Assembly (NCBI GenBank): GCA_040757115.1
Contig: JBFLYA010000085.1
Span: forward strand, 2,934 to 15,447
DNA: 12,514 nucleotides
Source: a bacterium
GTDB taxonomy: Bacteria > UBA9089 > CG2-30-40-21 > SBAY01
Direction: 5' to 3'
The notes beneath the pieces are model-generated. The model did no database searches, was not told the origin of the DNA, and saw only the letters and a program-made list of their open reading frames with translations. Every line of letters starts with the position of its first letter. Position 1 is the first letter of the stretch. Below, one piece after another: positions 2,400 through 12,514 of the stretch. Made by a program: the position numbers and the translations under genes.

Positions 2400-4397
2400 C
2401 TACCTCCTTAAGTCTTGTAGAATCATTTGTTTTAGCTGGTGAACCATTGGTAAATCAGGATTTAACCTTATTGCCTCATCAATACATTCTAATGCCTTTT
2501 GAAACCTTCTCAACTTTGCTAAGGCAAGCCCTTTATTATACCATGCCTCTGCATACCTTGGGTTTATCTCCAATGCCTTATCAAAGCAGGAGATTGCCTC
2601 CTCATATCTGCCAAGATTTCCTAAGGCAATCCCTTTGTTAATCCATGCCTCTGCCAACCTTGGGTTTATCTCCAATGCCTTATCATAGCAGGAGATTGCT
2701 TCCTCATGTCTGCCAAGATTGTCTAAGGCAAACCCTTTGTTAATCCATGCCTCTGCCAACCTTGGGTTTATCTCCAATGCTTCATCACAGCAGGAGATTG
2801 CCTCCTCATATCTGCCAAGCTTTCCTAATGCACCCCCTTTGTTAGACCATGCCTCTGCATACCTTCGGTTTATCTCCAATGCCTCATCATAGCAGGAGAT
2901 TGCCTCCTCACTTTTACCAAGATTTACTAAGGCATTTCCTTTGCTATACCATGCCTCTGCATCCTTTGGGTTTATCTTCAATGCCTTATCAAAACAGGAG
3001 ATTGCTTCCTGATGTCTACCAAGATTGCCTAATGCACTCCCTTTATTATTCCATGTCTCTGTCAGCCTTGGGTTTATCTCCAATGCCTTATCACAGCAGA
3101 AGATTGCCTCCTGATGTCTACCAAGATTCCCTAAGGCAAGCCCTTTGTTATACCATGCCAGTGCCTCTCTTGGATTTATCTTCAATATCTCATCAAAATA
3201 GGATATTGCCTCCTGATGTTTACCAAGCCTTCTTAATACATTCCCTTTGTTACCCCATGCCTCTGCATACCTTGGGTTTATCGCCAATGCCTCATCATAG
3301 CAGGATATTGCCTCCTGATGTCTACCAAGATTCCCTAAGGCAAACCCTTTGTTATACCATACCTCTGCATCCCTTGGGTTTATCTTCAATGCCTTATCAA
3401 AACAGGAGACTGCCTCCTGAAGTCTACCAAGATTTAATAAGGCGGCCCCTTTGTTATAAAGTTCTCCTGCCTCTAATTCTTCCCTCTCAGGTGGGGTTAT
3501 TCTTTCCCCTATTTCTTTTAAAAGCAGGTTTTCTAACTCCTCCCTGATAGAGGTAAAATCCTGGTATCTTTTATCTGGCTCTTTTTCTAAACATCTTTTA
3601 ATGATCGAGAAAAGAGGAGAGGGAAGGAGAGGAATCTTACCATATCTATGTAACCGCTCATATTCTTTTATACTACTGCCCACAAAAGGTAATCTCCCAT
3701 TTCCTGCCATCTGGTATAAGACAATACCAAAGCTATAGACATCAGACCTTTTGTCGGTAACCCCCTCAAACTGCTCTGGTGCCATATAAGGAAGTGTGCC
3801 ACAAACCCTCTTCCCTTTGCTTCTAAATATGCTTAAAGAAGATACCCCTTCTGTGATAACATCCCCCTTAAATTCTATCTCTTGAAATGCCTTAGCTAAA
3901 CCAAAATCGCTTATCTTTACCGTCTTATTAGAGGTTATCATAATATTATCTGGTTTTATGTCCCGATGGCAATCTATCCCTTTAGAGTAGGCATACTCCA
4001 TACCATAACAAAACTGGATGGAGAATTTTAAGACTTCCTGTAGGGTCAAATCCCCAAGAAGATAATGGCTTAAGGTATTTCTTCTCTGTCTATCTGGAGG
4101 AATATATTCAAGGAAAATAAATAGCCTTCCTTCTAATCTACCTACCCAATGAGCACGGACAATATAGGGATGCCTTTCCAATTCTGTCCAGACCAGGGCT
4201 TCTCTTTCAAATAACCTTTGGCCATCTTCAGAAAAAAGGTATTGCTCCTGAAAGGTCTTAAGGGCAACAGGTATTTTAAATTCGTGGTCATAGCAGACAT
4301 AGACAATACCCATTCCTCCCCCTAATACCTGGTAAATCTCATATCGGTCAGCAATTCTATCCCTAACCTGCCATCTACTTGTGTTTGTTTTCCCCAT
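2400..4397 (-). CDS. Ser/Thr protein kinase with ten TPR repeats, copy 2
   Basis: A complete 665-residue protein. The Hanks-type kinase domain spans roughly residues 18-290, with glycine loop LGGGMGIVY (25-33), ATP-binding K47 in VALKTF, HRDIKPDN (144-151, catalytic D146), DFGLA (164-168) and GTLPYMAPEQ (200-209). All key residues are present, so activity is expected. Residues about 311-650 are ten consecutive 34-residue TPRs, nearly identical to one another and visible in the DNA as 102-bp repeats. The last repeat (LRRFQKALECIDEAIRLNPDL) is diverged and acts as the cap. Start at 4397 is backed by GGTGG upstream. The gene begins 11 bp after the AbiEii-like gene on the same strand and is probably cotranscribed with it. 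There are no membrane segments. Targets are unknown; the TPR scaffold suggests docking to protein partners. Confidence 0.95.
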   Translation of the reverse strand: MGKTNTSRWQVRDRIADRYEIYQVLGGGMGIVYVCYDHEFKIPVALKTFQEQYLFSEDGQRLFEREALVWTELERHPYIVRAHWVGRLEGRLFIFLEYIPPDRQRRNTLSHYLLGDLTLQEVLKFSIQFCYGMEYAYSKGIDCHRDIKPDNIMITSNKTVKISDFGLAKAFQEIEFKGDVITEGVSSLSIFRSKGKRVCGTLPYMAPEQFEGVTDKRSDVYSFGIVLYQMAGNGRLPFVGSSIKEYERLHRYGKIPLLPSPLFSIIKRCLEKEPDKRYQDFTSIREELENLLLKEIGERITPPEREELEAGELYNKGAALLNLGRLQEAVSCFDKALKINPRDAEVWYNKGFALGNLGRHQEAISCYDEALAINPRYAEAWGNKGNVLRRLGKHQEAISYFDEILKINPREALAWYNKGLALGNLGRHQEAIFCCDKALEINPRLTETWNNKGSALGNLGRHQEAISCFDKALKINPKDAEAWYSKGNALVNLGKSEEAISCYDEALEINRRYAEAWSNKGGALGKLGRYEEAISCCDEALEINPRLAEAWINKGFALDNLGRHEEAISCYDKALEINPRLAEAWINKGIALGNLGRYEEAISCFDKALEINPRYAEAWYNKGLALAKLRRFQKALECIDEAIRLNPDLPMVHQLKQMILQDLRR

Positions 4398-4408
4398 CGT
4401 TTCACCAC

Positions 4409-5161
4409 CTATAATTTTTCTAAGACCATTTCCTTAATATTCTCAGCAATTCTTCTTTGGTTTAAAGGTAGAAATTTTCCGAGGTCTAATTTTAATCTTT
4501 TCTGGTCAAATCCCCTGATTTTATCTACTAAATCCTTCTGGGTTACTCTTCTGTTATAATATTCCATTTTCTTATTAACCATCACCCAGTCAATTTGTAT
4601 TCCTTTTGAAAGAAGATACCAGATGTCAAAAAGGTCTCTGCCTTTTACCCTATGTATCAATGCCCTTATTTTTTCTGTTAGAATCTCTTCCCACGACAGG
4701 CATTTGATAATAGGATATGGGCTGATGGGAAATAATGTCTCCATAACAACATCTTTTTCAGTCAAAGGCTTTTCCCTTAAAGAAAATTCCAGATGAACAT
4801 TTAAGGGAAATTTCAACTCATCAGTCTTGTATCGCAAAAATCCTGTGAGACTGTTAATGTTAGAAGTAATCTGTCTTAATTCTATTTCAGGCATAAGAAG
4901 ATTTATTTTTCTGATAATTTTGATGAGTAACTTTTTTATTTCATCAGCAGATATTAAAGAGGTAAAATCTAAATCTTCTGAAAATCTGAAGGAATTAAGA
5001 ATTAGTCTCAAGGCTGTGCCGCCTTTGAAATAAATTTTTGAACTCTCTTTTTGCTCATAAAGCGCCGCCAGAAAAAGAATCTGCAAATACTCTCTTAAAC
5101 AAGTGAACTCGTCAATAGCAAATTTATGTGATAATTCTCTAACCTGTTCTTTACTAATCAT
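4409..5161 (-). CDS. AbiEii/AbiGii-family nucleotidyltransferase toxin
   Basis: A 250-residue protein of the nucleotidyltransferase fold. Family motifs are all visible: YFKGGTALRLIL (about 44-55), SEDLDFTS (61-68) with the metal-binding acidic residues, a central EILTEKIRALI segment, and GRDLFDIWYLL near residue 200. AbiEii proteins are toxins of type IV toxin-antitoxin systems; members of this superfamily transfer nucleotides to RNA targets such as tRNA and can cause abortive infection. The start codon overlaps the end of the upstream AbiEi-like gene by 4 bp, the usual coupling of this pair. Length is slightly below the classical AbiEii of about 300 residues but the core is complete. Which substrate it modifies cannot be told from sequence. 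Confidence 0.9.
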   Translation of the reverse strand: MISKEQVRELSHKFAIDEFTCLREYLQILFLAALYEQKESSKIYFKGGTALRLILNSFRFSEDLDFTSLISADEIKKLLIKIIRKINLLMPEIELRQITSNINSLTGFLRYKTDELKFPLNVHLEFSLREKPLTEKDVVMETLFPISPYPIIKCLSWEEILTEKIRALIHRVKGRDLFDIWYLLSKGIQIDWVMVNKKMEYYNRRVTQKDLVDKIRGFDQKRLKLDLGKFLPLNQRRIAENIKEMVLEKL

Positions 5162-5748
5162 AGTTTTATATTCAATGAATCAAAGAAATTGCCAAAAATT
5201 TCACTCTTAATCTTGCCAGATAGTTCTCTTAACCTCTTTTTATCAATCTTATCTAATACCCATTCTTCAGGATTAATTACCGTTCTCCCATAACTTGCAA
5301 AGAAGATGGTATCAACAATGGCTTTTTCAGGGGTTGCGATAAGAAAATGTTGCTCTTTAATATAATCTGAATAATATCTTTGGTCTAAATGAAAATAGGC
5401 AAATTCTTTATTTACCGCCCTTATTTTTTTAGCCCTTTTGATGGTAACTGAAGTTATAACCTGTGGCACCTGAATTAAAATACCATAGTATGCCAGAGCA
5501 GATTCTAAAGAAACATAGGAGGGTTTATAGAGGAAATTAGCTATCTCAAAATCTGTAGGTTTTTTATCTTTTAAACAATATACTCCTTTAGCTATTCTGT
5601 CTAATAGACCCTCCTTCGTCAGCCTATTTGCCTGAATGTAGGCGATGTTATCACTTTCACTTCTGAGGAGTTTTTTAAGGTCAATCAGACTAAAAATATC
5701 TCTTCTGGATTTCTGTAATATAAGCAGTGCTTCTATCTTCTTCATCAT
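5158..5748 (-). CDS. AbiEi-like antitoxin / autoregulatory wHTH protein
   Basis: A 196-residue protein. The first about 60 residues form a winged helix-turn-helix (LIDLKKLLRSESDNIAYIQANRLTKEGLLDRIAKGVYCLK). A domain typical of AbiEi-family antitoxins follows, with PSYVSLESALAYYG near residue 80 and ATPEKAIVDTIFF near 140. In characterised AbiE systems this protein binds inverted repeats in its own promoter and counters the nucleotidyltransferase toxin encoded next. Two adjacent ATGs (5748 and 5745) follow an AAGGA motif; the second has the better spacing. A strong promoter and palindrome lie just upstream. The 4-bp overlap with the toxin gene points to coupled translation. Confidence 0.88.
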   Translation of the reverse strand: MMKKIEALLILQKSRRDIFSLIDLKKLLRSESDNIAYIQANRLTKEGLLDRIAKGVYCLKDKKPTDFEIANFLYKPSYVSLESALAYYGILIQVPQVITSVTIKRAKKIRAVNKEFAYFHLDQRYYSDYIKEQHFLIATPEKAIVDTIFFASYGRTVINPEEWVLDKIDKKRLRELSGKIKSEIFGNFFDSLNIKL

Positions 5749-5769
5749 CTATCCTTATATGCATTATTC

Positions 5770-5785
5770 TTAACAATATTGTAAA
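5770..5785. promoter_or_regulatory. Candidate operator overlapping the -10 of the abiE promoter
   Basis: The 16-bp sequence TTAACAATATTGTAAA is palindromic, with a perfect ACAATATTGT core, and covers the -10 hexamer. AbiEi-type antitoxins repress their own promoters by binding inverted repeats, so this is the natural binding site. Assignment is inferred from position and symmetry. Confidence 0.55.
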
Positions 5786-5806
5786 GGATTATGTATATAT
5801 TGTCAA
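5778..5806 (-). promoter_or_regulatory. Promoter of the abiE-kinase operon
   Basis: On the minus strand a perfect TTGACA (-35, complement of 5801-5806) and TACAAT (-10, complement of 5778-5783) are separated by exactly 17 bp. The -10 is about 30 bp from the AbiEi start. This should drive abiEi, abiEii and probably the downstream kinase. Confidence 0.8.
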
Positions 5807-5848
5807 GCAAAAATTAAATTGAACCCTACATTTTTTCAAATACCTGGC

Positions 5849-6152
5849 GTAATTATTCAGCCACAGATAAATACGGATGAAACACTGAAAATTCGTAATC
5901 CGTGTCCGTTTTCCGTGTCCGTAATCAGGCTGAAGGCTGATGGCTGAAAATTCAGGTATAGTGCCTCGTGTCTCCTCTCCTTCTCCGCTTCTCCCTTTCT
6001 CCGTTTCCCCGTTTCCCCCTTTCTCATTTGTCCTCTACCCTCTGCCTTCTGCCCTCTGCCCTCTGCCTTCTGCCCTCTGCCCTCTGCCCTCTGCCTTCTG
6101 CCCCCTGTATTTATCCGTGCTAATCCGTGTCAATCAGTGGCTGAATAGTTAC
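5849..6152. mobile_element. MITE-like inverted-repeat element 2 (GTAAYYRTTCAG family)
   Basis: The left end GTAATTATTCAGCCACAGAT (5849-5868) and the complement of the right end, GTAACTATTCAGCCACTGAT (6152-6133), match at 18 of 20 positions. Inside are further inverted ATACGGAT / ATCCGTAT-like blocks, three GGCTGAW heptamers (5928-5948), a polypyrimidine stretch and a CTCTGCC tandem array. No gene is credible here: the open frame across it is low-complexity. It fills most of the gap between the abiE promoter and hisC. Confidence 0.7.
6033..6102. repeat. Heptamer tandem repeat (YTCTGCC)x10
   Basis: Ten uninterrupted 7-bp units, mainly CTCTGCC and TTCTGCC with one CTCTACC at the left. They lie inside a longer all-pyrimidine tract that starts near 5970. 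It resembles the short tandemly repeated heptamers known from cyanobacteria and other genomes and is likely length-variable by slippage. Confidence 0.9.
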
Positions 6153-6266
6153 AGTCCTTTTTGAAATTTGATTTGTAATTTTGCTTTTTGATATTTGATT
6201 TAATTTCAGGTCTAACTCTCAGTTTTTCCCCCAAATCCTATTTTGCAGAACCATAGAAAAGAAGCC

Positions 6267-7322
6267 TTAATATCTTCTGCAAATACTATCTATCTTTCCC
6301 AAAAAGGCATTGTTTTCTTGTTCATTACCAATAGTTACTCGAAGGCAGTTAGGGATATCATCATTCAAATTACGAATTAATATCCCTTCTTCAACTAAAT
6401 TTGAAAAAAGGGTATCTGCCGGGATATTAAGGGTTTTAAATAAAATAAAATTAGCATCACTGGGGTAAGGCATAATGCCCGTTATTCCTTTAAGAAATCC
6501 ATAGACCCTTTCTCGCTCGCTTATTATCTGGTTAATTCGAGGTTGTAAAAGGTATCTAAAATTTTCTATGGCACAAGTCGCCACTGCTTGAGAAAAAGCA
6601 TTCAGGTTATAGGGCAATTTTACTTTGAGAAGTTCATCGATTATTTGAGAATTAGCAATCAAATATCCAATTCTTAATCCGGCTAAACCAAATGCCTTAG
6701 AAAATGTCCTTACAATTATTACCTGCGGGTAAATGTTAATCAGTGAAATGAAGGTTTCCTTTGAAAACTCAAAGTAGGCTTCATCAATAATTATTAATGA
6801 GGTTGGCGATTCGTCAATAATTTCTAATACCTTTTCTTTTGAAAAAGAGTTTCCTGTTGGATTATTTGGATAAGCGAGAAAAATAATGGAAGGAGTATCC
6901 CTGGTTATTTTCAATATCTTTTCCTCATTTAATTCAAATTTGTCAGTTAAAGGTATTCCAATTGGCGTGGTGTTAGTAATCTGGGATAATATTTTATACA
7001 TGGCAAAGGTAGGTGTGGGAAAAACAACTTGACCTGCGTTAAAAGTTAGCAGAATGTATAAGATTAGTTCATCAGAACCATTACCAACCAAAATTTCTTT
7101 TTTATTTATGCCAAGATATGCGGCAATAGTCTGGCGTAATTCATTTGAAAGTGGGTCGGGATAACGATTAAAACCAGTAATCTTTTCTTTAAGCAATTCT
7201 TTTATTTCGTCTGGTAAGTCATAGGGATTTTCCATCGCATCTAATTTAATTGGGCAGGAAATATCCGGTATTTGGTATGGTTTTAAGGTTTTAATATTTT
7301 CTTTGACTAATGATTCAATCAT
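6267..7322 (-). CDS. hisC: Histidinol-phosphate aminotransferase-like PLP enzyme
   Basis: A fold-type I aminotransferase of 351 residues when started at ATG 7322. PLP-site motifs: YPNNPTGN (151-158), IIIDEAYFEF (177-186, with the PLP-ring Asp), TFSKAFGLAGLRIGY (206-220) with the Schiff-base lysine K209 and the phosphate-binding Arg. KLDAMENPYDLP near the start is the substrate region typical of HisC. HisC makes histidinol phosphate from imidazole-acetol phosphate and glutamate. The start at 7322 is preferred over an upstream TTG (7358) because it overlaps the radical SAM stop as TGATG and has AAAGGAG upstream. No other his gene is in view and the partner is a radical SAM enzyme, so a different amine acceptor is possible. 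Confidence 0.88.
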   Translation of the reverse strand: MIESLVKENIKTLKPYQIPDISCPIKLDAMENPYDLPDEIKELLKEKITGFNRYPDPLSNELRQTIAAYLGINKKEILVGNGSDELILYILLTFNAGQVVFPTPTFAMYKILSQITNTTPIGIPLTDKFELNEEKILKITRDTPSIIFLAYPNNPTGNSFSKEKVLEIIDESPTSLIIIDEAYFEFSKETFISLINIYPQVIIVRTFSKAFGLAGLRIGYLIANSQIIDELLKVKLPYNLNAFSQAVATCAIENFRYLLQPRINQIISERERVYGFLKGITGIMPYPSDANFILFKTLNIPADTLFSNLVEEGILIRNLNDDIPNCLRVTIGNEQENNAFLGKIDSICRRY

Positions 7323-8350
7323 CAATTTATCCGCTCCTTTTTTGGTTGATAAATACAATTAGGCTCCTGGTCTAAGTAATCACCTGTTTTCGCATAGGCT
7401 CGTGCTCGGCAACCACCACACACATTGATATATTCACATCGTCCACATTTACCTTTGTATTTAGAAAAATCACGCAATTCGTTAAAGACTTGCGAATTTT
7501 CCCAGACATCTTTAAAACTCTGGGTTTTAATATCGCCACAACGAACATCTAAATAACCGCACGGGAATACCTCACCTTTGTAAGAGATGAAGCAATAAGA
7601 AGTTGCGGCCAAGCAACCTTTGCTTAAGGGAAAATGTTGTTCACCTTTTTCTATCTGTTGCATAATCCTGAAATAATGTGGGGCACAGGTAGTTCTTATT
7701 TCAATATTTGTTACTTTACTTTTTTTATATAACCAGGTTAAGACATCTTCGTATTCCGTGAGGCTTAATTCCTGTTTCTCCATTGTCTTAGCTCTGCCAG
7801 TTGGGACAAGGAAGAAGAAATGGCAGGCAACCGCACCCAATTTAATGCTTAAATTGATTATATCATTGAGTTCTAGATAATTTTGTTTTGTAACCGTAGT
7901 ATTAATCTGGAATTCAAGACCACTTCTTTTTGCCCATTTTAGTCCTTCTAAAGCCTTTTCAAATGCTCCCTGTTGTCTAATTTTATTATGGGTTTTAGCC
8001 GCCGCACCATCCAGACTAACACTAATTCTTTTAATTCCAACATCTTTTATTCGCTCAGTGACTTTCTCATTAATCAAAGTTCCATTACAACCGATGACAA
8101 CGGTAAATTCCTTACTTATGGCATAAGAGGCTATTTTAAATATATCCTGTCGAAGTAGTGGCTCACCGCCAGAAAGGATAAGTATGGGATGGCTAACTTT
8201 AGCAATTTCATCAATTAAAACAAATGCCTCCTCTGTAGATAACTCATCCTCATCAAATCTATTACTATTAATCGCACTTGCCCGACAATGGATGCAAGAA
8301 AGATTACATCTTCGAGTAACCTCCCAGGCTACTAATCTCAAATTATTCAC
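7322..8350 (-). CDS. ahbD: SPASM radical SAM enzyme, AhbD-like (haem b synthase family)
   Basis: A 342-residue enzyme. CNLSCIHC (C15, C19, C22) binds the SAM-cleaving 4Fe-4S cluster and SGGEP (60-64) the SAM amino group. The C-terminal SPASM region has many cysteines (253, 264, 271, 302, 305, 311, 314, 332) for auxiliary clusters. The segments RLVAWEVTR, LEFQINTTVTKQN, TCAPHYFRIM, CGYL and GGCRARAYAKTGDYL match what I know of AhbD, which converts iron-coproporphyrin III to haem b by oxidative decarboxylation of two propionates in the siroheme-dependent route. NirJ, AhbC and peptide-modifying SPASM enzymes are close relatives, so the exact substrate is less certain than the family. The annotated start is GTG 8350; a TTG at 8341 sits six bases after AAGGTG and gives the more typical N-terminus. 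The first gene of an operon with hisC. Confidence 0.85.
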   Translation of the reverse strand: MNNLRLVAWEVTRRCNLSCIHCRASAINSNRFDEDELSTEEAFVLIDEIAKVSHPILILSGGEPLLRQDIFKIASYAISKEFTVVIGCNGTLINEKVTERIKDVGIKRISVSLDGAAAKTHNKIRQQGAFEKALEGLKWAKRSGLEFQINTTVTKQNYLELNDIINLSIKLGAVACHFFFLVPTGRAKTMEKQELSLTEYEDVLTWLYKKSKVTNIEIRTTCAPHYFRIMQQIEKGEQHFPLSKGCLAATSYCFISYKGEVFPCGYLDVRCGDIKTQSFKDVWENSQVFNELRDFSKYKGKCGRCEYINVCGGCRARAYAKTGDYLDQEPNCIYQPKKERIN

Positions 8351-8359
8351 CTTATTTTT

Positions 8360-8388
8360 ATTATACCCTTATAATTTGTTTCTGTCAA
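8360..8388 (-). promoter_or_regulatory. Promoter of the radical SAM-hisC operon
   Basis: On the minus strand, TTGACA (complement of 8383-8388) and TATAAT (complement of 8360-8365) with a 17-bp spacer: a full consensus sigma70-type promoter. The predicted transcript start is only a few bases before GTG 8350, which favours the TTG at 8341, with AAGGTG as ribosome site, as the translation start. Confidence 0.85.
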
Positions 8389-8406
8389 GAGAAATCTCGT
8401 GAAACC

Positions 8407-8543
8407 CAGTAATTCTCGGTGAATTTTTAGAGACTGAATTCACCTATGTTTAGGAGAGATAGAAAAAAATATTTTTCGTAAAGATTTTGAGAGGAAAATA
8501 AGGAATAATGAGTCTCTATCTAATTTTCCACCGAGAATTACTG
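8407..8543. repeat. 137-bp palindromic element between divergent promoters
   Basis: A perfect 15-bp inverted repeat, CAGTAATTCTCGGTG (8407-8421) and CACCGAGAATTACTG (8529-8543), forms the ends. It continues imperfectly inward (TTAGAGACT-type blocks). The left arm also holds its own perfect hairpin, GGTGAATT (8418-8425) with AATTCACC (8437-8444). No coding potential is convincing. It may be a small mobile element or a shared regulatory structure for the two flanking promoters. Its ends do not match the GTAAY element family. Confidence 0.65.
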
Positions 8544-8560
8544 ATAGATCAAAATTTTTA

Positions 8561-8589
8561 TTGACATGGGATAAAATTTGTGGTAAAAT
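8561..8589 (+). promoter_or_regulatory. Promoter of the DUF4384-zinc ribbon-DUF2085 gene set
   Basis: TTGACA (8561-8566) and TAAAAT (8584-8589) with a 17-bp spacer. The -10 ends nine bases before ATG 8599, so the transcript should be nearly or fully leaderless. Confidence 0.75.
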
Positions 8590-8598
8590 ATAACCATA

Positions 8599-9471
8599 AT
8601 GATTAAAAGTGAAGGTAACATCAAAAATGACCCAAAAGCAAATTCCTATCAGTTCAGTAATGAATACAAGGCTGGAAACCAATCACATCCTATTGCTGAC
8701 CTATTTGGCACGAAAGAAATGTTACAGATTGTCATCAAGAAATTGTCAAGTCAATCGCTAATCTTCAGTTTGGCGTTTATTGTCATCCTGGTGATAGCCT
8801 ACAAGCTCTGTGGCAATCAAGGATTACCGATTATTGCAGCCATTCTCTTCGTTTTTCTGGTAGGTATGTTTGCCTATTTATTCTTTGAGCAGAAGAGCAA
8901 AGTTAAGCATGAAGACCCATCAACCATAAGCCAACTGCTCGGAGAGAAGCTCAACGCTATCACAAAGCCAACGGGAGACTTTTCTGTCCATGTGTGGACC
9001 TCTCTCGCCGCCGAGACCAGTGTGGAGAGTCGTGATATTAATATTATCCCATCAGCGAAACAAGCTAAGTATCGTATTGGCGACAAGATTAATGTGTGCT
9101 TCCGTTCCACTAAGGACTGCTATTTGACCTTGCTGAATATCGGTACGAGTGGAAAACTGACCATTTTATTTCCCAATGGGCTATATCGTAACAATTTGAT
9201 TTCAGCCAATCAGAGCTATGAAATTCCTGGCAAAGAGTATGGTTTTGAATACGGACTGCTGGGACCGCCGGGAATCGAAAAGTTGAAAGCCATCGCTACA
9301 TTGGAGAAGGTAGAATTACTGGCGTCGCAATTCTCATCGGATGGTTCGCTGTTTCGGATAGAGACGCCGGCAGCCGCGGCGCGTGATATTACAGTAATCA
9401 AGAAAAATGTCGAAGCGATTCCGACAGACAAATGGACTGAAGCAACCTGTGAGTTTCGTGTTAACCAATAG
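8599..9471 (+). CDS. Membrane-anchored DUF4384-domain protein
   Basis: A 290-residue protein. A polar N-terminal 50 residues precede two closely spaced hydrophobic segments (about 53-71 and 77-96) that should form a membrane hairpin, followed by a soluble domain of about 190 residues. Residues about 150-240 (YRIGDKINVCFRSTKDCYLTLLNIGTSGKLTILFP) fit DUF4384, a beta-rich domain often found attached to bacterial caspase (peptidase C14) domains or to Ser/Thr kinases. With both helices crossing, N- and C-termini are on the same side, most likely the cytoplasm. No ribosome site precedes ATG 8599 and the promoter leaves almost no leader; the next in-frame ATG (residue 41) would remove only the polar tail. 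A caspase gene follows 1.3 kb downstream, which suggests the usual fused pair is split here. Molecular role unknown. Confidence 0.85.
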   Translation: MIKSEGNIKNDPKANSYQFSNEYKAGNQSHPIADLFGTKEMLQIVIKKLSSQSLIFSLAFIVILVIAYKLCGNQGLPIIAAILFVFLVGMFAYLFFEQKSKVKHEDPSTISQLLGEKLNAITKPTGDFSVHVWTSLAAETSVESRDINIIPSAKQAKYRIGDKINVCFRSTKDCYLTLLNIGTSGKLTILFPNGLYRNNLISANQSYEIPGKEYGFEYGLLGPPGIEKLKAIATLEKVELLASQFSSDGSLFRIETPAAAARDITVIKKNVEAIPTDKWTEATCEFRVNQ

Positions 9472-9523
9472 CATGTGTAAAACAACCTTGCGGTTAACAA
9501 ATCCAAAAAGGAGGAGCACTATC

Positions 9524-9877
9524 ATGTTTTGTCCAAAATGTGGTTTTGAAAATCCAGATGGAGCTAAGTTCTGTGGTAAATGTGGCACTTCCATGACAAT
9601 AGATTACCCGACTGAGCCACAAACCCAAATAGGGAAACCGCCTTTCCCACCAGATGGTGCACCAGTCTCATCGGGGTTGAAGACGGGCATCATTGTCGGC
9701 ACATTGTTCATACCATTGCTCGGCATTATCATGGGAATAATCTACATGAACGATCCTAATCCCGCCAAAAAAGCCGTTGGGCGATTATGGTTGTGGGTAG
9801 GCATCAGTGTGTGTGTACTCTCATGTATCTGCGGGATAATAGCCTATGTGATTGGTATGTCGGGGAGTTATTATTAG
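9524..9877 (+). CDS. Zinc-ribbon membrane protein
   Basis: A 117-residue protein starting at ATG 9524, seven bases or so after a strong AAGGAGG site. The N-terminus is a zinc ribbon (CPKCGFENPDGAKFCGKCG, two CxxC pairs 12 residues apart). A Pro-rich linker and two hydrophobic segments follow (about 47-68, and 86-112 after the NDPNPAKKAVGR turn). The ribbon style matches the C-terminal ribbon of the caspase at 10799. It lies 52 bp after the DUF4384 gene and two bases before the DUF2085-like gene, so it is in the same transcript. Such proteins are common but mostly uncharacterised; a scaffold or sensor role in the membrane is a guess. Confidence 0.85.
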   Translation: MFCPKCGFENPDGAKFCGKCGTSMTIDYPTEPQTQIGKPPFPPDGAPVSSGLKTGIIVGTLFIPLLGIIMGIIYMNDPNPAKKAVGRLWLWVGISVCVLSCICGIIAYVIGMSGSYY

Positions 9878-9879
9878 CG

Positions 9880-10443
9880 ATGTCTGTTCTGTATGATCTC
9901 TGTGGATTGATATGTCACCAATTGCCAGGTCGCTCGTCGCACTTTGATGGTATTGTCTTCCCCCTCTGTTTTCGGTGTTCAGGCTTGCATTTCGGAGTGG
10001 TATCGTCATACCTCTATCTGGCAGTAAGCGGTGGGTGGAAGCGCAGTTTCCCAGATGTTCGAAGTGGGGTTAGCGCTAGCTTGCTGATGGTGCCATTTTT
10101 GCTGGATGGCTGGGGCAACACGCTACACCTGTGGGCATCGCCAGGGTGGTTTCGGGCTCTCACAGGTTTAGGTATGGGTATGGTGCTACCGCTGTTACTG
10201 GTTCCTCTAATCCATCAGCCGGCACAAATAACGACTTCCGAGCTCAAACCATCACTGTCGCATCCCACTACCCTGATTTGGCCGGCAATACCAGGCCTTA
10301 TAATGGTATGGTTTATGATGCATCCGATGGTGCTGCTCATATTCCAACTTCTGACCATTACTGTATTAGTGGGAATACTAATATTTGGTATCAATTTCCT
10401 CTTAGTGTCGCGTGTTGTATTAACGGAGATATTTTTTTCGTAA
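9880..10443 (+). CDS. DUF2085-like multi-pass membrane protein, 3' end altered by a repeat element
   Basis: 187 residues from ATG 9880, two bases after the preceding stop, so translational coupling is likely. The N-terminal signature ICHQLPGRSSHFDGIVFPLCFRCSGLHFG matches DUF2085 membrane proteins (CHQxPxRS...PLCxRCxGxYxG), whose conserved Cys/His suggest metal or redox chemistry; function is unknown. Several hydrophobic segments follow (around residues 38-50, 66-80, 95-110, 132-150 and 152-178). The stop codon TAA (10441-10443) is the second to fourth base of the inverted-repeat element starting at 10440, so the native C-terminus may have been lost or replaced. Confidence 0.8.
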   Translation: MSVLYDLCGLICHQLPGRSSHFDGIVFPLCFRCSGLHFGVVSSYLYLAVSGGWKRSFPDVRSGVSASLLMVPFLLDGWGNTLHLWASPGWFRALTGLGMGMVLPLLLVPLIHQPAQITTSELKPSLSHPTTLIWPAIPGLIMVWFMMHPMVLLIFQLLTITVLVGILIFGINFLLVSRVVLTEIFFS

Positions 10444-10656
10444 CCGTTCAGGCTATATATCAAAAGTGTAAGAAAGGGGATAAGGAGATAAGAGTGATAT
10501 GGAGATAAGATAATAGAAATAGGTAGAAATTGATTGTGGAAAACAACAAATTTCCATAAATTTCTATTAGTTTCTATTAATTTCAATTTTTTTATAATAT
10601 CTCCCTATCTCCTTAATCTCCACATCTCCTTATTGTTACATCACCTGAACGCTTAC
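10440..10656. mobile_element. MITE-like inverted-repeat element 3 (GTAAYYRTTCAG family)
   Basis: The ends GTAACCGTTCAGG (10440-10452) and the complement of 10644-10656, GTAAGCGTTCAGG, match at 12 of 13 positions. The interior is a long imperfect palindrome: AAGGAGATAAGAGTG and GGAGATAAG blocks on the left, their complements (CTCCTTAATCTCC, ATCTCCTTA) on the right, around a central AT-rich TTTCTATTA-type repeat. The DUF2085-like gene's stop codon lies in its left end. No coding frame inside is credible. It separates the membrane genes from the caspase. Confidence 0.75.
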
Positions 10657-10783
10657 GGAAATTATATACCCTATCGCGAAATTGTAAAAACTGGGGGAGG
10701 CAAGTCAAATTTACATAATTGTCTGAAAATATAGAAGGTTAAGAGAAATTTAGGTAAAAGTTTTTGACATTAACAACCTCAGC

Positions 10784-10790
10784 AAGGGAG
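10784..10790 (+). promoter_or_regulatory. Ribosome binding site of the caspase gene
   Basis: AAGGGAG with eight bases before ATG 10799 fixes the caspase start. A TTGACA at 10764-10769 lacks a convincing -10 at the right distance, so where this gene's transcript begins is unclear; the gap 10657-10798 shows nothing else. Confidence 0.7.
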
Positions 10791-10798
10791 ATAAAATC

Positions 10799-12055
10799 AT
10801 GAGTGAAGTATTTAGTGGTTCAGTAGCGACAGTAGCAATCAAATCTGCTTATGCGCTGATTGTAGGCATTGGACAATATAGCGATCCGCGTATTCGAAAG
10901 CTTGATTTCACTCATGCCGATGCTCAAGCATTTTGTGACTTATTGTTGAATCCACAGCACGTTGGATTCTTAAAGGAGAATGTCAAACTGCTATTGGACG
11001 AGCAGGCGACTTTATTCAATATCAAGAATGCGATTACTGGATGGCTCTATAAATACACCGGTTCCGAATCGACGGTAATTATTTTCTTCGCTGGACATGG
11101 CGGTGTAGAAAGTGACAAGGAAGACACTGAAAAAGATGGGATTGCCAAATATCTTCTGCCGTGGGATACGAACCCTGACGATTTATTTGCCTCAGCGCTA
11201 TCAAACACCGACTTTCACCGGCTATTGAGCACGATTAAGGCTCAGCGATTGATTATTTTCCTGGATGCATGCTACGCGGGTGGCGTGGCTCAGCGAGGAT
11301 CGCGGGATTTGGGAATCGTAGAAAATCCCTGCGAGCGGTTGGCACAGGGAGAAGGCAGGTTAGTGATTTCAGCGGCTAAACCGAATCAACGTTCCTGGGA
11401 AGACCCTACCATTGGCCATGGTATTTTTACCCATCATCTACTGGAGGCGCTAAAGGGCAAAGCAGATATGGACAACGACGGCTATGTGTCAATCTGGGAG
11501 GTCTATAAATACCTCGAACGGGAGGTGTCCCAGAGCGCGCGATGTTTGGCCAAAAGTATCCAGGAACCTCTTTTCTGTGGGGACATGGCAAAAGATATCT
11601 TTCTGACCGCAGACGCCCAGCGCATAGCCAAACTTGCCTTTCAGCGTTCCGAAGCCGAACGCCGGTGCAGAGAGGAAATACAACTGAAACGACGCAAGCT
11701 GTTCGATCTTTATGATCGCGGCGAATTCCCATCAGACGCTTATCAGGAAGCTATGAGCCTTATCGACAAACCTCTCACTGAAATGACTACAAAGGATAGC
11801 AAATTAGCGAAGAATCTTGAGGCACTGTTAAAGGACGGACTTTCCGCTGAGGTCTATCTTGAAAACCGTGACTCTATTCGTTCACAAATGGAACGAAAAG
11901 ATTCCGACCGTTCCCCAGTTCAACCTCCACCACAAGACACTAAATCCCCAGGGCTAAAGCCACCTAAAACAGAGATGAAATATTGTATTCATTGTGGTAC
12001 GCAAATCAATCTTCAGAACAAGTTTTGCATTAACTGCGGTTGGTCAATTCAATGA
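10799..12055 (+). CDS. Caspase-family (peptidase C14) protease with EF-hand-like loop and C-terminal zinc ribbon
   Basis: A 418-residue protein. Residues about 16-270 are a caspase/metacaspase-type p20-p10 domain: YALIVGIGQY strand, FFAGHGG with catalytic H100, and FLDACYAGG with catalytic C158. Both dyad residues are present, so proteolysis is expected, likely after basic residues if it is metacaspase-like. D223-E234 (DMDNDGYVSIWE) fits a canonical calcium-binding EF-hand loop and could make activity calcium-dependent. Residues 290-360 are charged and helical, with an LFDLYDRGEFPSDAYQEAMSLI stretch like short SHOCT-type oligomerisation motifs. A Pro-rich linker (about 370-392) leads to a zinc ribbon (C396, C399, C410, C413). 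No membrane segment or signal peptide. The ribbon resembles that of the protein at 9524 and may tether the protease to it or to a shared partner. A role in programmed death or stress response is inferred from the family. Confidence 0.92.
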   Translation: MSEVFSGSVATVAIKSAYALIVGIGQYSDPRIRKLDFTHADAQAFCDLLLNPQHVGFLKENVKLLLDEQATLFNIKNAITGWLYKYTGSESTVIIFFAGHGGVESDKEDTEKDGIAKYLLPWDTNPDDLFASALSNTDFHRLLSTIKAQRLIIFLDACYAGGVAQRGSRDLGIVENPCERLAQGEGRLVISAAKPNQRSWEDPTIGHGIFTHHLLEALKGKADMDNDGYVSIWEVYKYLEREVSQSARCLAKSIQEPLFCGDMAKDIFLTADAQRIAKLAFQRSEAERRCREEIQLKRRKLFDLYDRGEFPSDAYQEAMSLIDKPLTEMTTKDSKLAKNLEALLKDGLSAEVYLENRDSIRSQMERKDSDRSPVQPPPQDTKSPGLKPPKTEMKYCIHCGTQINLQNKFCINCGWSIQ

Positions 12056-12075
12056 GGTTTAGGGGGGTAAACCTC
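12054..12075. other. Hairpin at the caspase stop codon
   Basis: GAGGTTTA (12054-12061) pairs perfectly with TAAACCTC (12068-12075) around a GGGGGG loop. It could protect the mRNA 3' end or aid termination, but no T-run follows, so it is not called a terminator. Confidence 0.45.
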
Positions 12076-12129
12076 GAAAGCGGAATTAACTCAGTTCCTG
12101 CATTTTCTGGGTCATCAGTGTACTATTAT

Positions 12130-12260
12130 TCATTCCCAGATGACCTCATTAGCAATCAAATACAGGCCCATCTTTACAAACGCGTTTATCGATGGTTTTC
12201 TCTCCATCTCTAACATTTATTACGCAACCCAGACATGCCCCTACTCCACAGGTTTTTATT
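12130..12260 (-). pseudogene. pyrK: 3' remnant of pyrK (dihydroorotate dehydrogenase electron-transfer subunit), frameshifted
   Basis: The minus strand from 12250 reads CGVGACLGCV, then VRDGEKTIDK, then RVCKDGPVFD. This is the C-terminal 2Fe-2S site of PyrK with all four cysteine ligands. One extra T in GATTGC (complement of 12152-12157) then throws the frame into a stop. Without it the sequence continues as ANEVIWE and a stop at 12130-12132, the normal end of the family. The 5' side ends at the GTAAGCGG repeat starting at 12261, and nothing further of PyrK is found to the right. I conclude it is a truncated, dead copy. A sequencing error would explain the frameshift but not the missing 5' part. 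Confidence 0.7.
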
Positions 12261-12356
12261 GTAAGCGGATTAAACGGATTGAGCGGATTTTTTTTATTTC
12301 TTTTTCCGCTAAATCCGCTTACTAAATCCCCCCGCTTACTATAAAAATCTGCTTAC
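12261..12356. repeat. Cluster of GTAAGCGG inverted and direct repeats
   Basis: GTAAGCGGATT (12261-12271) is answered by a perfect inverted AATCCGCTTAC (12312-12322). Two further CYGCTTAC copies follow at 12332-12339 and 12349-12356. Internal ACGGATT / GCGGATT units make the left arm tandem. It borders the broken pyrK fragment on its 5' side and is probably a small dispersed palindromic element with partial duplicates. Confidence 0.7.
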
Positions 12357-12372
12357 TTAATTTTCTACCTGA

Positions 12373-12504
12373 ACAGGTCGCAAAATTTTTCGACCTGTGC
12401 GGTTAGGTTTTAGGTTATTGACGCTGAAAGCGTCGAATTTTAAATAACCGTAGATGCAATCTACGGAAATAAACGCCCGCAAAACTCGACCCTGAAAGGG
12501 TCGA
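12373..12504. repeat. Array of four short hairpins, REP-like
   Basis: Four perfect hairpins in series: ACAGGTCG/CGACCTGT (12373-12380 with 12391-12398), GACGCT/AGCGTC (12420-12425 with 12429-12434, GAA loop), CCGTAGAT/ATCTACGG (12448-12455 with 12459-12466) and TCGACCCT/AGGGTCGA (12486-12493 with 12497-12504, GAA loop). Two share the same GAA loop and a trailing TCGAAT-like tail but have different stems, with compensating changes. They resemble repetitive extragenic palindromes. No gene is present from 12262 to the window end. Confidence 0.7.
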
Positions 12505-12514
12505 ATGTAATCCA

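Follow-up and report, generated by a model that had tools for sequence, protein, structure and literature searches.

Gene content of the locus

We analysed a stretch of 12,514 nucleotides (hereafter the window) at the right end of contig JBFLYA010000085.1 (contig C85, bases 2934-15447), which belongs to a draft genome of 4.3 Mb in 462 contigs (GenBank assembly GCA_040757115.1; GTDB lineage Bacteria; UBA9089; CG2-30-40-21; SBAY01). Our subject is a group of genes encoding a DUF4384 protein, a zinc-ribbon membrane protein, a DUF2085 membrane protein and a caspase of the orthocaspase type, which an earlier note on this DNA had taken for a single membrane-recruited, possibly calcium-gated protease system. 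All four genes were found where that note had placed them, on the + strand (Table 1). Comparison with Pelagicoccus suggests that the DUF4384 protein, a two-helix anchor and the caspase may form a membrane-associated orthocaspase set, a reading to which we give about even chances.

Table 1. Features of the window, numbered from its first base
Feature	Position	Strand	Evidence or remark
DUF4384 protein, 290 residues	8599..9471	+	PF14326, E 2e-21
two hydrophobic helices (residues 54-71 and 76-96)	about 8758-8811 and 8824-8886	+	read from sequence
DUF4384 domain	9070-9303	+	
Zinc-ribbon membrane protein, 117 residues	9524..9877	+	PF13240 (Zn_Ribbon_1), E 8e-10
N-terminal ribbon	9527-9592	+	
membrane segment (residues 37-116)	9632-9871	+	homologous to C-terminus of Pelagicoccus caspases
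DUF2085 membrane protein	about 9880..10443	+	PF09858, E 7e-17
MITE-like palindromic repeat, about 220 bases	10439..10657		separates DUF2085 from caspase
Caspase, orthocaspase type, 418 residues	10799..12055	+	Peptidase_C14 (PF00656), E 2e-18
catalytic domain	10850-11590	+	
EF-hand-like loop	11465-11500	+	
C-terminal zinc ribbon	11984-12037	+	
Further multi-copy repeats	12254..12514		directly downstream of caspase, reach contig end
Kinase-TPR gene	2400-4397	-	
AbiEi/AbiEii pair	4409-5748	-	PF08843, E 2e-31; PF13338; PADLOC AbiE models

The caspase passes the Peptidase_C14 cut-off (67.2 bits vs 21.4), and its catalytic domain is followed by a helical tail and a C-terminal zinc ribbon. The catalytic dyad is intact, with both His100 (at 11096) and Cys158 (at 11270) invariant, and the fold is well predicted, the best Foldseek match being 3bij (E 1e-12), followed by metacaspases and MALT1. 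The ribbon, of the form CxxC...CxxC, scored 20.4 of the 25 bits needed in the Pfam protein scan (below the cut-off) and 26.0 bits in a six-frame search (just above it). Within the catalytic domain lies a 12-residue EF-hand-like loop of perfect textbook form, DMDNDGYVSIWE. Such a loop occurs in strict form in 15 of 63 varied caspases and in looser form in 32, so it does not distinguish this set, and calcium gating was set aside.

Used as the sole query, the window caspase retrieved no relatives from the genome contig collection, and an alignment of ten varied caspases was too diverged for collection scans. We rejected the idea that the caspase is of mobile or viral origin, as neither a protein nor an alignment query had a match in phages or in viral contigs; the plasmid hits were remote caspases only, with an identity of no more than about 32% among the matches listed. 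We also discarded a defence-system label, since PADLOC returned a generic caspase model (3e-14) alone and left the other three proteins without a match. Tandem caspase pairs, distinct from the window's caspase, are present in both genomes of the genus (G000, contig C197, locus L082, 3401-6656; G001, contig C76, locus L085, 1787-5039).

The DUF4384 protein passes its family cut-off as well (PF14326, 76.3 bits vs 27). Its first ~18 codons (8599-8655) are doubtful, the sister species having a different frame there, and the true gene start may be the ATG at 8719 (Met41). Because lysines flank the two helices on their N- and C-terminal sides, the distribution of charge suggests that the immunoglobulin (Ig)-like DUF4384 domain is cytoplasmic. 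The fold prediction behind that description is weak: residues 120-290 gave a beta-sandwich-like model for which Foldseek found no match at E <= 0.001, and a second structure search returned just generic Ig-like beta-sandwiches (Z <= 7.5), so the fold was abandoned as a guide to function and we claim none from it. Directly upstream of the gene, at 8407-8557, lies a 150-base repeat with inverted ends, of which a 93% identical copy is found on contig C67.

The DUF4384, ribbon and DUF2085 genes are probably expressed as one transcript, because a strong ribosome binding site (AAGGAGG) precedes the ribbon gene and hardly any space is left before DUF2085, whose likely start (ATG 9880) lies two bases past the ribbon gene stop. 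DUF2085 clears its family cut-off (62 bits vs 25), and its stop codon falls within the repeat element. The caspase is linked only loosely to this group, with 355 bases between it and DUF2085, most of them belonging to the repeat, a miniature inverted-repeat transposable element (MITE)-like sequence bounded by terminal inverted repeats of 14 bases, CGTAA(C/G)CGTTCAGG. Each of the two genomes of the genus has over 40 copies of it, spread over many contigs. The assembly is weak at this point: the window and contig C180 have an exact stretch of 119 bases in common there, and the start of contig C85 also lies in the repeat.

Elsewhere in the window, on the - strand, are an AbiEi/AbiEii toxin-antitoxin pair and a gene for a serine/threonine kinase that also contains about ten TPR repeats of very similar sequence.

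Pelagicoccus relatives of the DUF4384 protein and caspase

A search with a DUF4384 alignment, in which caspases were not part of the query, returned 47 loci in named genomes. Two of these, in Pelagicoccus sp. SDUM812005 and P. mobilis, carry a DUF4384 gene followed 12 bases on, and on the same strand, by a caspase gene. The Pelagicoccus DUF4384 proteins have the same two-helix N-terminus as the window protein (38% over 249 residues), and the accompanying caspases are the closest to the window's among the loci compared outside the genus, with 52% and 49% identity over the domain and the next at no more than 39%. In the caspase-domain tree (n = 51) the Pelagicoccus caspases join those of the window's genus with support of 99/97, and in the DUF4384-domain tree the Pelagicoccus and window domains fall into one clade, less well supported (90/83), together with the kinase-fused domain of Candidatus Scalindua rubra.

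The Pelagicoccus caspases end in a membrane segment that the window encodes on another gene. Their C-terminal 80 residues match the part of the zinc-ribbon protein that follows its ribbon, where two hydrophobic helices lie (37% identity, E 2e-13, 59.7 bits); as controls, the next best of thousands of reading frames scored 28.9 bits and the best of 2000 shuffles 25.8, and other membrane proteins also stayed far below the match. By this homology, the anchor is part of the caspase in the Pelagicoccus lineage and a separate small protein beside the DUF4384 protein in the window's genus. The description of the protease as membrane-recruited, offered in the earlier note, fits this arrangement, in which an orthologous DUF4384 gene directly precedes an orthologous caspase fused to a membrane segment. 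Because the Pelagicoccus loci, found by DUF4384 sequence alone, carry the caspases closest to the window's, we favour a membrane-associated set of DUF4384 protein, two-helix anchor and caspase.

Separate caspase neighbours are common at DUF4384 loci, being found at 10 of the 47, with a fused reading frame at three. Besides the two Pelagicoccus loci, the separate neighbours are in Phycisphaerae, Desulfomonile, Desulfogranum, KSB1, Neomarinimicrobiota, Cloacimonadota, WOR-3 and Bacteroidetes. In the window's own family, on contig C134 of G003, a caspase with N-terminal beta-propeller-like repeats lies directly upstream of a DUF4384 protein. Among cyanobacterial orthocaspases, 23 of 473 contain DUF4384 (PMC8283722). 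The idea that the two are usually fused, and unusually split in the window, is thus wrong. A conserved four-gene set is not supported; the part of the earlier interpretation that Pelagicoccus does support is that DUF4384, the two-helix module and the caspase belong together.

A profile of the two-helix segment gave just weak matches in 386 other genomes, zinc-ribbon proteins and ribbon-kinases among them. The kinases at loci L185 and L197 have a zinc ribbon at the N-terminus and, at the C-terminus, two helices with a weak likeness to the segment of the window's ribbon protein, a hint that the pairing of ribbon and two-helix anchor is widespread. The segment thus looks like a membrane module used in more than one domain combination, which tempers the inference of a set and does not remove it. 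A split double ribbon was considered for the two zinc-ribbon proteins of the window, since halves of the DZR profile matched them in complementary fashion (positions 1-23 the membrane protein, 25-45 the caspase); the halves are nearly alike, and the match was not accepted as evidence.

Conservation in the genus and rival readings

The sister species, the only other genome of the genus (98% DNA identity), splits the four genes. Window positions 6257-10440, comprising hisC, a radical SAM protein gene and the DUF4384, ribbon and DUF2085 genes, are 98% conserved on sister contig C192, which then enters other DNA, and positions 10774-12261, with the caspase, are 98% conserved on sister contig C59, behind IspD. 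The IspD locus of the window's own genome has no caspase. Beside the break, no run common to both sister contigs is longer than about 60 bases. Either the caspase would have moved, or one of the assemblies would be chimeric at a repeat. Downstream of IspD in the window's genome (L055, 7136-11863) is a gene for a large protein of 1575 residues with cyclase-like, NTPase and WD40-repeat parts, and its site is near the position of the sister-species caspase.

Several observations weigh against a membrane-associated set. The caspase is joined to the membrane genes of the window solely through a repeat-bearing assembly join, and in the sister species it is on a different contig from them, next to IspD. 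The Pelagicoccus caspases have no ribbon and no DUF2085 nearby. The weak relatives of the two-helix segment sit on other proteins (zinc-ribbon proteins and kinases), so that the segment may be a generic anchor, and a positively charged loop between its two helices makes the sidedness of the anchor unsure.

These points bear most directly on a reading in which the genes are chance neighbours, the DUF4384, ribbon and DUF2085 genes being an operon and the caspase an independent gene that works alone and moves between repeats or has been mis-joined. Repeats lie on either side of the caspase, the 119-base exact repeat lies at the junction, and the placement of the two 98% identical blocks on different sister contigs, together with the caspase-free IspD locus of the window's genome, fits this reading. 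It does not easily account for Pelagicoccus, where members of both lineages, DUF4384 and caspase, lie side by side with order and orientation unchanged and the caspase carries the membrane segment as a fusion, an arrangement that a chance reunion would be hard put to produce. We consider chance neighbours somewhat unlikely.

The system as originally proposed, with four genes including DUF2085, recruitment through ribbons and gating by calcium, fares much worse. In its favour are the single orientation of the genes, the perfect EF-hand loop and the ribbons on two proteins. A four-gene module within 5 kb is seen solely in the window's own assembly, and its conservation was rejected on the sister genome and on 98 others searched for DUF2085, PF00656 and DUF4384; the genes are not neighbours in relatives, which is the very outcome that the earlier note had named as refuting, and it holds for the four-gene version. 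In those 98 genomes DUF2085 was never within 5 kb of a caspase or DUF4384 gene outside the genus, where one DUF2085 gene and a DUF4384 gene were about 5.6 kb apart, separated by unrelated genes. Given also how often the strict loop occurs in varied caspases, we judge this version very improbable. DUF2085 is regarded as a probably co-transcribed passenger, for whose membership of the caspase set no support was found.

Very improbable, too, is true membership of the two-gene conflict systems of EACC1 and caspase, for which the layout is as published (PMC7159879) and the best NCBIfam match of the caspases is NF047832 ('caspase, EACC1-associated type'; window 1e-28, Pelagicoccus 7e-32 and 2e-33), since the scores (100.2 bits for the window, 110.7 and 115.8 for Pelagicoccus) fall short of the curated threshold of 140, caspases of every kind in this analysis match the model, and no EACC1 domain was found in the DUF4384 protein even when hits were admitted up to E 10 in Pfam and E 0.01 in NCBIfam.

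A putative membrane-associated orthocaspase and its relation to known systems

For the favoured set of DUF4384 protein, anchor and caspase, we propose the following mechanism. The DUF4384 protein would be held in the membrane by its two helices, with the Ig-like domain probably exposed in the cytoplasm, where it could serve as a partner, a sensor or a substrate-presenting subunit of the caspase. The caspase would act at the membrane, to which the Pelagicoccus enzyme would be anchored directly by its C-terminal two-helix segment. In the window, docking of the caspase on the anchor protein would most likely depend on the ribbons that both proteins carry, or else on the helical tail of the caspase. 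Proteolysis would then be switched on when a signal at the membrane gathers or releases the caspase. A more specific form, in which the anchor has been split off and zinc ribbons replace covalent anchoring to give an inducible, ribbon-docked protease with DUF4384 as its sensor, distinct from EACC1-caspase systems, strikes us as doubtful.

In EACC1-caspase two-gene systems, the product of the 5' gene is a membrane protein thought to activate the N-terminal caspase of the other protein (PMC7159879, System 4). The likeness lies in a 5' membrane gene and a 3' gene for an N-terminal caspase with a variable C-terminal part, often with membrane helices (PMC7159879). In the window, unlike these systems, the partner is a two-helix DUF4384 protein and the anchor is a separate zinc-ribbon protein. 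The 5' membrane gene leads directly to the caspase in Pelagicoccus, while two genes and a repeat lie between them in the window and the sister species has them on separate contigs. By analogy, the window set might at most work like an EACC1-caspase system, and we do not file it as a member.

The set also resembles orthocaspases fused to DUF4384, known from cyanobacteria (PMC8283722, PMC7475262) and as alphaproteobacterial pseudo-orthocaspases (PMC6426788), in bringing a caspase p20 domain and DUF4384 into one functional unit. It differs from them in that the genes are separate, the dyad is intact and a ribbon or membrane segment is found at the C-terminus of the caspase. With type I metacaspases that have an N-terminal zinc finger it has in common a caspase domain combined with a zinc-binding motif, and an EF-like or calcium theme; in the window, however, the ribbon is C-terminal rather than an N-terminal prodomain, the sequence is like that of bacterial orthocaspases, and any dependence on calcium would be putative.

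Apart from Pelagicoccus, the closest DUF4384 domain is that of Candidatus Scalindua rubra (L088), where, unlike in the window, DUF4384 is fused to a kinase, membrane helices are absent and no PF00656 caspase is nearby. At that locus (5014-10268) the kinase-DUF4384 gene is followed by a DnaK-like gene and then, two genes downstream, by a gene for a TPR-CHAT (caspase-like) protease, a possible further link between DUF4384 and caspase-like proteases. Kinase-TPR genes like the one in the window are also found near the Scalindua kinase-DUF4384 gene.

The putative DUF4384/anchor/caspase core is supported by one independent lineage, and none of the papers found describes it. DUF4384 is a frequent companion of bacterial caspases and kinases whose role has so far been unassigned. 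A DUF4384-caspase pair with a common evolutionary history, in which the anchor is fused in one case and separate in the other, offers a concrete, testable partner assignment, with DUF4384 as a candidate membrane-side regulator of an orthocaspase. It further suggests that caspase two-gene systems may use a second kind of membrane partner besides EACC1, outside Actinobacteria and Proteobacteria.

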